From positions 1 to 44,996 of the forward strand of contig WFUE01000197.1 of the NCBI GenBank assembly GCA_015485125.1: DNA of 44,996 bases, read 5' to 3'. The stretch is from Lysobacterales bacterium. Lineage in GTDB: Bacteria; Pseudomonadota; Gammaproteobacteria; Xanthomonadales; S139-57. Position numbers and translations under genes: made by a program. The notes beneath the pieces were generated by a model. That model was given only the letters and a program-made list of their open reading frames with translations, had not been told where the DNA came from and ran no database searches. Shown here piece after piece: positions 10,719-35,421 of this stretch (its first letter is position 1; every line of letters starts with the position of its first letter).

Positions 10719-10853
10719 TCAAGCGCTCAGACGCTTGCGGCCCTTGGCGCGACGCGCGGCCAGGATGGCGCGGCCACTGCGGGTTTTCATGCGGGCACGG
10801 AAACCGTGGGTACGCTTGCGCTTCAGATTGCTGGGTTGAAATGTGCGTTTCAT
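10719..10853 (-). CDS. rpmH: 50S ribosomal protein L34
   Basis: This 44-residue, very basic protein of the large ribosomal subunit begins [18 protein letters not shown] and ends GRKRLSA, an unmistakable L34. The ATG at 10851-10853 follows an AAAGG ribosome site. A strong promoter sits about 48 bases upstream. Upstream of it, where dnaA often stands divergently in gammaproteobacteria, there is instead a repeat cluster and then a metallo-beta-lactamase-fold gene. Confidence 0.97.
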
Positions 10854-10930: not shown

Positions 10931-10969
10931 TGGCTTTTGTTGACGGGCTTGTATTGACTACGAACGGCA

Positions 10970-11018
10970 ACCGAGTTAGGCAGCCCGTGCAACGCAGAGA
11001 TACGGAAAACAAGCCGCC
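10970..11018 (+). repeat. Right-half fragment of the 127-bp fold-back element
   Basis: This fragment contains CAACGCAGAGATACGGAAAA followed by CAAGCCGCC. It is nearly identical to the corresponding part of the inverted full copy at 34954-35080, including the ACCGAG..AGGCAGC lead-in, and less like its immediate neighbours. It lacks the left half and the terminal CCAAAA, so it is a truncated remnant of the second subfamily. Confidence 0.7.
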
Positions 11019-11042
11019 TATTTCCCTTTCTACCAGCACCCA

Positions 11043-11169
11043 TTTTGGGCGAGCGGTTTTTTGCCAGACAAGGCGGAGGGGGTAAACGAGGAGGGAGCAT
11101 ACATTCCAGTATGTGACCGACGAGTGCATCCCCTCCAACGCCGTATGGCGGAAAACAAGCCGCCCAAAA
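11043..11169 (+). repeat. 127-bp fold-back repeat, copy A (full length)
   Basis: It runs from TTTTGGGCGAGCGG to CAAGCCGCCCAAAA; the two ends are imperfect inverted repeats sharing nine identical terminal bases. Inside, GGAGG (11075-11079) can pair with CCTCC (11132-11136). A central hairpin CATAC-ATTCCA-GTATG lies at 11098-11113. About 10 substitutions separate it from copy C, which has exactly the same length. It looks like a MITE-type or structured intergenic element; no transposase is present. Confidence 0.85.
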
Positions 11170-11170
11170 C

Positions 11171-11255
11171 CGTAGGGTGCAATAGCGCCAGCGTATTGCA
11201 CCGGGACCCTTTCAGTTTCCACGGCGGAATACGGCTTCGCCTATTCCGCCCTACG
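11171..11255 (+). repeat. 85-bp double-hairpin (BIME/REP-like) element, left copy
   Basis: The element starts CGTAGGGTGCAATA and ends TATTCCGCCCTACG. The first hairpin pairs GGTGCAATA with TATTGCACC; the second pairs GGCGGAATA with TATTCCGCC. Both outer ends carry the GTAGGG tetraloop-like motif of REP sequences, in opposite orientation, so this is two REP units in a bipartite element. An 85-bp copy of identical layout lies inverted at 35246-35330. No RAYT (REP-associated tyrosine transposase) gene is in the window. Confidence 0.85.
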
Positions 11256-11270
11256 ACAGCCAGTTTCAAA

Positions 11271-11385
11271 CAGCGGTTTTTCGCAAATTGAGGCGCCGGG
11301 GTCAGATTGCGAGGGAGCGTACCGGTCGGTACGTGACCGACGAGTGCGTCCCCTCCAATGCAGTATGGCGGAAAACAAGCCGCCC
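11271..11385 (+). repeat. 127-bp fold-back repeat, copy B (degenerate left end)
   Basis: The right two-thirds match copies A and C well: GAGGGAGCGTACC, GTGACCGACGAGTGCGTCCC, and GTATGGCGGAAAACAAGCCG. The left part is reduced to CAGCGGTTTTTCG plus unrelated sequence, and the terminal AAAA is lost. The central hairpin survives as CGTAC-CGGTCG-GTACG (11318-11333), with a different loop. Confidence 0.75.
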
Positions 11386-11408
11386 GGTCATCCATATACC
11401 TGCACAGA

Positions 11409-11547
11409 TTTTGGGCGAGCGGTTTTTCGTCAGACAAGGCGGAGGAGGTAAACGAGGAGGGAGCGTACAGGTCAGTACGTGACCGACGAGTGCATCCCCT
11501 CCAACGCAGTATGGCGGAAAACAAGCCGTCCAAAAAGCCGCCCAAAA
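11409..11547 (+). repeat. 127-bp fold-back repeat, copy C, with duplicated right end
   Basis: The full 127-bp unit spans 11409-11535. It is followed by a 12-base repetition of its own right end (AGCCGCCCAAAA, 11536-11547). The central hairpin is CGTAC-AGGTCA-GTACG (11464-11479), and the outer stem GGAGG (11441-11445) with CCTCC (11498-11502) is kept. The duplicated end touches the stop codon of the persulfide dioxygenase gene directly. Confidence 0.85.
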
Positions 11548-12246
11548 TCAGGCTGCGTGCGTCTCCAACCCACACACCTTGTTCGCCGGCACAGCCTCGT
11601 CAATTTTCTTCGGCCGGGCCAGGTTCAGGTTGTTCATGATCTCCACAAATTCTGCTTCACTTTTACCGGCCAGGCGCGGATTGGTGCGTTTTTCCTCGCC
11701 GATGCTGCTGACGGTACGGCCCTTGTAGTCGTGGCCGGGGTAGACCAGGGTTTCCTCCGGCAGGACGAACAGGCGGTCAACAATGCTGTGGTAGAGATCC
11801 TTCGGGTTGCCGCCCTGAAAATCGGTACGTCCACAGCCACCGATCAGCAGGGCATCGCCGGTGAATACGCGGTCGCGCCAGTGGTAGGAAACACTGCCCG
11901 GTGTATGGCCCGGCGTGTTGATAACCCGAATCACCTCGTTGCCGAAAACCAGTGTCTGTTCATCTTCCAATTGCACATTGGCGCATTCGGCACCGCAGTT
12001 GCGGCCCACGGCGGTGGTGGCGCCGGTGGCGTCTCGCAGCTGGCCGGCGGCGGTGATGTGGTCGGCGTGTACATGGGTTTCGAGAATCCAGCGCAGTTTC
12101 AGGCCCAGCCGTTCCAGTTCGGCCAGGTAGAAATCCTTTTCGCTGTCCACGGTGTCGATCAGCACGGCTTCACGGGTATCGCTGTCGGCCAGCAGATAGG
12201 TGTAAGTTGAGCTTTCCGGTTCGAAATACTGTTTGAATATGGCCAT
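11548..12246 (-). CDS. ETHE1-like persulfide dioxygenase (metallo-beta-lactamase fold)
   Basis: The protein is 232 residues from ATG 12244-12246, behind a perfect AGGAGG site. Metal ligands are visible: H58, H60, D62 and H63 in THVHADH, H114 in TPGHTPG, D131 in FTGDALL, and a final His in VYPGHDY. The stretch GGCGRTDFQGG is the mark of the ETHE1/persulfide dioxygenase group, which oxidises glutathione persulfide to sulfite with a single iron. A glyoxalase II is less likely given that motif. It is divergent from the TonB receptor. Its stop codon abuts the repeat cluster, so repeat hairpins lie at the 3' end of its transcript. Confidence 0.85.
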   Translation of the reverse strand: MAIFKQYFEPESSTYTYLLADSDTREAVLIDTVDSEKDFYLAELERLGLKLRWILETHVHADHITAAGQLRDATGATTAVGRNCGAECANVQLEDEQTLVFGNEVIRVINTPGHTPGSVSYHWRDRVFTGDALLIGGCGRTDFQGGNPKDLYHSIVDRLFVLPEETLVYPGHDYKGRTVSSIGEEKRTNPRLAGKSEAEFVEIMNNLNLARPKKIDEAVPANKVCGLETHAA

Positions 12247-12379
12247 GACGATCCTCCTGAAACGATGGTTGTGAGTGAACAAGATGCGGGCTGTGGGGTC
12301 GAATTGCAAGTTTGCCCTGGCGGGATGGTACCGGTAGAGTGGCCGCCCCGCTGGTTTTCATTAGATATTGGAGGCGATT

Positions 12380-34953: not shown

Positions 34954-35080
34954 TTTTGGGCGGCTTGTTTTCCGTATCTCTGCGTTGCAAGTGCTGCCTC
35001 ACTCGGTCACGTACTGAATCGTACGCTCCCTCGCGATTCATCCCTTGCGCCTTGATCTACGTAAAAACGCTCGCCCAAAA
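34954..35080 (-). repeat. 127-bp fold-back repeat, copy E (full length, inverted)
   Basis: This copy has the same 127-base length and the same ends (TTTTGGGCGAGCG, CAAGCCGCCCAAAA on the minus strand) as copies A and C, but belongs to a second sequence subfamily. The central hairpin is kept (CGTAC-loop-GTACG at 35010-35025). The outer stem is changed on both sides: GCAAG with CTTGC, in place of GGAGG with CCTCC. It lies 14 bases after the stop of the DUF5916 gene. Confidence 0.85.
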
Positions 35081-35102
35081 TCTTTGCTGGTAGATAAATG
35101 AA

Positions 35103-35152
35103 CAGCTTGTTTTCCGCAACGCTTCTTGCAATAGTCATCTTGCTCGGTCATA
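35103..35152 (-). repeat. Degenerate fragment of the 127-bp element
   Basis: CAGCTTGTTTTCCGCAACG, then CTTGCTCGGTCAT, resemble the right half of copy E in the same orientation. Identity is partial and the left half is missing. It probably represents an older, decayed insertion. The ~90 bases between it and the next element show nothing I can name. Confidence 0.45.
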
Positions 35153-35245
35153 GCGCCTTTTTGCGGATGAGGTATTCCTCCCCCGTCACTGCACCCGGTC
35201 CGGCATCCCTGCCGACCGTTCAGCCCGGCTGCGTGTCACTGATGT

Positions 35246-35330
35246 CGTAGGGCGGAATAGGCGAAGCCGTATTCCGCCGTGGAAACTAAAATGGTTCTGG
35301 TGCAATACGCTGGCGCTATTGCACCCTACG
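35246..35330 (-). repeat. 85-bp double-hairpin (BIME/REP-like) element, right copy
   Basis: This is the same 85-base element as at 11171-11255, in the opposite orientation. Both hairpin arms (GGCGGAATA/TATTCCGCC and GGTGCAATA/TATTGCACC) and the CGTAGGG ends are identical. Differences are confined to the central spacer between the hairpins. The ~90 bases from here to the thioredoxin stop contain no other feature. Confidence 0.85.
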
Positions 35331-35421
35331 ATTTTTGAGCGGATTGTTCTTCACGCGAGGGTGCGAAATGAAACCGGTCATAGACTGGTCTTGTGCTTCT
35401 CGTGAACGGAACGGCGCTTCC

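Follow-up and report, generated by a model that had tools for sequence, protein, structure and literature searches.

An ERIC-like miniature element with a conserved folded core in a Lysobacterales genome, and its relatives in distant bacteria

The 127-bp units repeated in this Lysobacterales genome are best explained as copies of a non-autonomous mobile element (MITE) from a superfamily that includes ERIC, in which a conserved structured core is combined with interchangeable ends; we put the probability of this reading at about 0.78. The unit is short, non-coding, present in high copy number and bounded by terminal inverted repeats, which are among the features by which a MITE is recognised. 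The preliminary description of this DNA had left the family unnamed, a gap now closed by its identification as an ERIC-like miniature mobile element. In its anatomy, an outer stem carries terminal inverted repeats specific to the lineage (here TTTTGRGCGAGC../..GCCGCYCAAAA), followed by a mid-stem free in sequence with pairing preserved, a conserved internal loop (CAAGG[C/A]/[G/A]ACGC) and, at the apex, a conserved core (GGGAGC-N-TAC/GTA-N-GTGACC) that contains tandem G·A pairs and leaves its loop free in sequence. Copies would be moved in trans by any insertion-sequence transposase matching their ends; the ends would change while the core stays.

Units in the window and their fold

The window, that is, the whole 44,996-nt stretch analysed, contains an array at 10970-11547. 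The array sits upstream of rpmH (10722-10853, minus strand) and, on its other side, downstream of a probable gloB (11548-12309, minus strand), a gene of the metallo-beta-lactamase fold. Its full-length members are copy A (11043-11169) and copy C (11409-11535), each 127 bp and on the plus strand, accompanied on the same strand by a degenerate copy B without the outer left end (11271-11385) and a degenerate right-half fragment (10969-11018); these lengths, positions and states of decay are as first described. Part of a conserved 5' extension of ~22 nt, found upstream of many copies with the consensus ..CTACCAGCACARG, lies at 11027-11042 (plus strand), and the right end is duplicated after copy C (AAAAAGCCGCCCAAAA, 11532-11547, plus strand). 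On the minus strand, a fourth full copy, absent from the first description and of another subfamily with mid-stem GCAAGGGAT / GCACTTGC, occupies 34954-35080, and a further right-half fragment occupies 35099-35151. Units are frequently arrayed, either abutting or ~22 nt apart, the latter spacing because of the conserved extension ending in ..CTACCAGCACARG; a CRISPR-like array was rejected, since the ~22-nt "spacers" are this same extension and not unique sequences.

The arrays mix the ERIC-like units with REPIN-like pairs of hairpins that carry a GTAG tag (GTAGGGTGCAATA..TATTGCACC with GGCGGAATA..TATTCCGCCCTAC), in the window at 11173-11266 and 35246-35332. There is also an element form of ~195 nt in which the middle is swapped for another G+C-rich repeat (..GACCGTGGGTCCGGTGGACC..GGCCGGCAGGGAGGCCGG..), seen at L017:43-238, L037:1231-1425 and L041:1621-1816, and also in L022, L024 and L039; a similar stretch lies at about 35190-35245 of the window. 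BOX elements of Streptococcus pneumoniae are structured repeats reported to vary in the middle, and by description the ERIC-like element with its ~195-nt forms resembles them in this respect.

Copy A found 42 BLAST matches in its own genome (2.41 Mb in 214 contigs), where the strict core is carried by 32 copies; the true number is probably higher, because many copies sit at contig ends. The sister species, sole other genome of the genus (G001), carries at least 22 copies, and 59 further genomes of the order yielded none at the same threshold. The window array had no match in plasmid and phage collections. With Rfam, a single tRNA was all that reached the gathering threshold over the window, and the elements in seven other loci (L057, L054, L059, L100, L105, L078 and L104) gave no match up to E 0.1.

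The units had been reported as fold-back repeats whose central hairpin showed a compensatory change, and the three stem-loops agree with that report, loops included: CATAC (11098-11102) and GTATG (11109-11113) around ATTCCA in copy A, and CGTAC/GTACG around CGGTCG in copy B and around AGGTCA in copy C. One double change in three related copies is weak evidence alone; genome-wide it is strong. We wrote a structure by hand from 28 full copies of the two species and then counted pairs. Paired cells amounted to 92.6%, against 38-44% when the partner was slid, and 145 cells were changed on both sides, against 50.3 +/- 6.3 after shuffling, spread over 21 pairs with both-side changes (shuffled mean 15.5). 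RNAalifold, run independently, predicted a nearly identical fold. Between subfamilies the mid-stem is wholly different in sequence with pairing retained (GGAGGGGG/CCCCTCC, GCAAGGGCT/AGCCCTTGC, GAAGCCGGT/ACCGGCTTC). The claim of covariation is thus confirmed and extended, and the reading of a selected structure is strongly supported, for a single strand and for an extent well beyond the central hairpin: the fold-back spans the whole 127 nt, and the apical stem of copy A (hairpin at 11098-11113, plus strand) is longer than first drawn, with six pairs including a G·T and then tandem G·A pairs (GGAGC/GTGAC). Folding energies were -70.1 kcal/mol for copy A (z -8.5), -59.2 for copy C (z -6.9) and, on its minus strand, -56.6 for the fourth copy (z -7.7).

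The tandem G·A / A·G mismatches beside the apical stem are invariant in the 28 own-genus copies and present in 64 of 72 copies from outside the genus, where one of the two pairs is part of the search pattern. These pairs form solely on the strand reading GGAGC..GTGAC, and it is this strand that has the better fold in all 28 own copies and in 91 of 95 others, the opposite strand being worse by ~13-20 kcal/mol (~13-18 on average). The original alternative of an RNA or a protein-recognised cruciform can be narrowed accordingly: because of the G·A pairs and the better fold on one strand, a one-strand form, RNA or single-stranded DNA, fits better than a double-stranded cruciform. We infer that the core would act in its folded state, as RNA or as single-stranded DNA. 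The expectation set down for an unselected structure, stem substitutions breaking pairing as often as keeping it, was not borne out: in 242 copies representing many phyla, the variable apical pair was G-C in 160, A-T in 76, A·C in 3 and G·T in 3, so that 236 keep it, in a set of sites drawn partly by an R..Y pattern that itself permits A·C and G·T. The apical loops of these copies took 132 distinct sequences.

Relation to ERIC and spread across bacteria

ERIC, known since about 1990, underlies ERIC-PCR typing and is usually called enterobacterial, with reports also from Vibrionaceae. A covariance model trained on own-genus copies only, in an unfiltered search of 43 kb, found ERICs of Klebsiella (E 4.3e-8), Serratia (3.9e-7) and Citrobacter (2.7e-6), with alignments extending through all 126 model positions; the ERICs of E. 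coli were matched weakly (E 0.005 and 0.015). The core of the element also resembles ERIC (GGAGCTTACATAAGTAAGTGACTGG; for the consensus, PMC2759123). Like the ERIC/IRU/RU-1 elements (MITEEc1, MITEYpe1 and MITEPlu5, of Enterobacterales and Vibrionaceae), the units are ~127 bp long, extragenic and folded back over their whole length, and share with them the apical core GGAGC-N-TAC..GTA-N-GTGAC with its G·A pairs and the internal-loop motif. They differ in their ends (TTTTGRGC..GCYCAAAA vs TATACCC..GGGTATA), in part of the core (GTGACCG vs GTGACTGG), in host (a Lysobacterales MAG lineage vs Enterobacterales and Vibrionaceae), in the arrays with their ~22-nt 5' extension and REPIN-like neighbours, and in that the TA target duplication of ERIC was found at none of the copies with readable flanks. 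The element is therefore homologous to ERIC without being ERIC in the strict sense, its ends and host being different, and forms a new branch of a much wider family.

When a single genome of each species was scanned, the pattern GGGAGCRTACN{4,7}GTAYGTGACCG matched at least 111 loci. Among the loci listed were Clostridia, Bacteroidales (Porphyromonas, Tannerella, Alistipes), Desulfobacterota, Myxococcota, Verrucomicrobia, Sulfurovum, Acidobacteriota (Luteitalea), Sporosarcina, Lysinibacillus, Coriobacteriales and several Gammaproteobacteria. In 50 genomes from these listed loci the strict core occurred in 1 to 127 copies per genome (reversed control 0); among 399 Pseudomonadota genomes it was present in 11, mostly of one family with ERIC-type cores (reversed control 0), and IMG/VR yielded just 10 contigs with the core. 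With our covariance model R1, 82 loci yielded 99 matches at E < 0.01, of which most were full-length. Some relatives lie in or beside rRNA and tRNA operons (L104:4234-4358, L100:758-955, L103, L061, L067); a Chromatocurvus copy lies in the 16S-23S spacer, between 16S and tRNA-Ile, and copies of Sporosarcina and Lysinibacillus lie near tRNA clusters. Legionella spacer probes contain the GTATGTGACC of the core (PMC4254607). In the literature searched, chiefly openly readable papers, we found no statement of a cross-phylum ERIC-like family.

Since the cross-phylum loci had been chosen by their core, features beyond the core were tested, by arm-swapping and by motif counts. Among 78 non-redundant copies, own arms scored 36.8 and swapped arms 16.5 (sd 5.8). 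The internal-loop motifs C[AG]AGG[CA] and [CT][AG]AC[GA][CA] were present in 43 and 59 of 76 copies (at most 13 and 24 after shuffling), a count that needs no model. One internal-loop pair, read from the model-fitted alignment, was C·A in 44, A·G in 18, C·G in 1 and A·A in 0 (Fisher p 7e-15). Ends vary by lineage while the folded core recurs in very distant groups, which suggests one structured core spread by borrowing different transposases.

Evidence of movement

Transposition was shown in Porphyromonas somerae, where 9 of 9 distinct insertions were flanked by target duplications of 4-6 bp (10 of 306 when flanks were swapped) and copies end in GAGA[A/C]TGTTGCACGAAG..CTTCGTGCAACAGTCTC. Forms of 172-207 nt occur in this species (L276, L280 and others), with extra small hairpins in the left arm and target duplications kept. 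In P. levii, TGCAACAGTCTC, 12 bp identical to the element ends, comes directly after the C-terminal portion of a transposase of IS4/IS5 type, and ISPg4, of the IS5 family, has those same 12-bp ends (PMC4596501). The ends of MITEPgRS equal those of ISPg4 with one change on one side (PMC4596501), TGCAACAGTCTC being common to ISPg4 and the elements of other Porphyromonas; the identity of MITEPgRS/MITE464 of P. gingivalis, with its IS5/ISPg4-type ends, with the ERIC-like family is a lead only, drawn from the ends. The ERIC relative MITEPlu5 of Photorhabdus has IS630-like ends and a TA duplication and, when two strains are compared, accounts for 47 insertion/deletion differences (PMC6267812). Judged by their end types, then, the two lineages, those of P. 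somerae and Photorhabdus, appear to rely on different families of transposase and to share one conserved core. Ends would on this evidence have been exchanged between transposases, and the copies in the genome of the window were probably moved by the same kind of mechanism.

Signs of movement were sought in the own genome and elsewhere. Neither window site gave a filled/empty pair, the array being present also in the sister species and the contigs breaking there, and a target duplication could be demonstrated neither at the window sites nor at readable flanks elsewhere in the genome. In own and sister genomes there were no matches to PF01609, PF13358 or PF00078, some genomes being incomplete MAGs, and a search for insertion sequences ending in TTTTGRGCG found none. 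A clostridial genome (G491) showed sharp copy ends and no clear target duplication. A broad scan on guessed ends found duplications of at least 4 bp in 2 of 75 copies (0.24 expected), and a possible empty site for an E. coli ERIC, at ybhJ-ybhI, proved to be filled in nearly all genomes listed.

Other readings and the role of the core

The most serious alternative, which we nonetheless judge rather unlikely, takes the unit for a cis-acting RNA element retained because it serves the host, whether in the stability of mRNA or in its processing or termination, with mobility incidental; such a role has been reported for ERIC in Yersinia. It would account for the better fold of the sense strand in all own and nearly all other copies, and for the copies inside transcribed rRNA or tRNA regions (L104, L100, L067); according to PMC2229807, citing De Gregorio 2005, ERIC alters mRNA stability via RNase E in an orientation-dependent manner. 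A host function of this kind sits poorly with the way copies are oriented towards co-directional genes, which shows no significant bias (sense 15, antisense 23, p 0.26, by a rough gene call), with a copy number as patchy as 1 to 127, and with the lack of a recurrent single gene neighbourhood. Copies are in excess at convergent gene ends (24 vs 9, by a rough test), as expected for insertions that avoid promoters. On the mobile-element reading, the core would be kept for the element's own propagation or tolerance, and host effects, as in Yersinia ERIC, would be secondary.

Less probable still is a single pan-bacterial enzyme, for instance a Y1/HUH transposase of the RAYT type or a reverse transcriptase, that would recognise the folded core. 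That the core and not the ends is conserved across phyla, and that it is strand-specific, would suit such an enzyme. Against it, the target duplications of P. somerae point to a DDE-type transposase, and Y1 has matches in only 11 of 26 element-rich genomes: it is absent from the sister species and from the genome with 127 copies (G452), and the own genome has a single weak match (L230). Reverse transcriptase was found in 6 of 20 element-rich genomes, IS630 in 2 of 20 and IS4/IS5 in 5 of 10, so that each of the four is missing from some of them and was rejected as a universal mobiliser; likewise, the ORFs neighbouring the core in the 111 loci listed belonged to generic families only. A Kofleriaceae MAG (G470, L073) has 34 Y1_Tnp matches, many in ORFs of ~270 aa, in what is an expanded transposase family. 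The units resemble REPINs and RAYT-moved REPs in being short, non-coding, palindromic and dispersed in high copy number, and are their neighbours in arrays. They have neither the GTAG tag nor a REP pair, and differ in length and core; for want of the tag, and with Y1 missing from G001, G452 and others of the element-rich genomes, membership of the REPIN/RAYT group was rejected. Integron attC sites, of similar size, were set aside too, there being no cassette genes and, by eye, no R-box motif.

Finally, the paired changes could in principle come from mutation, by template switching that copies one arm of an imperfect palindrome onto the other, since such quasipalindrome correction is established and the mid-stems change fast with pairing kept, but we consider this quite improbable because it would erase mismatches, and here neither the tandem G·A pairs nor the asymmetric internal loop has been lost, with C·A exchanging for A·G.

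More tentatively, a single structured RNA or single-stranded DNA module of ~85 nt, conserved across distant phyla, might work with some near-universal component of the cell and have outlived repeated swaps of its ends between unrelated transposases, with ERIC as just its enterobacterial branch; we regard this as possible, at rather less than even odds. What the comparison does provide is a place for ERIC within a far broader family whose consensus structure is defined. Two questions thereby become testable: which agent mobilises these elements, and for what reason the fold of one strand, with its specific non-canonical pairs, is conserved whichever transposase is used.
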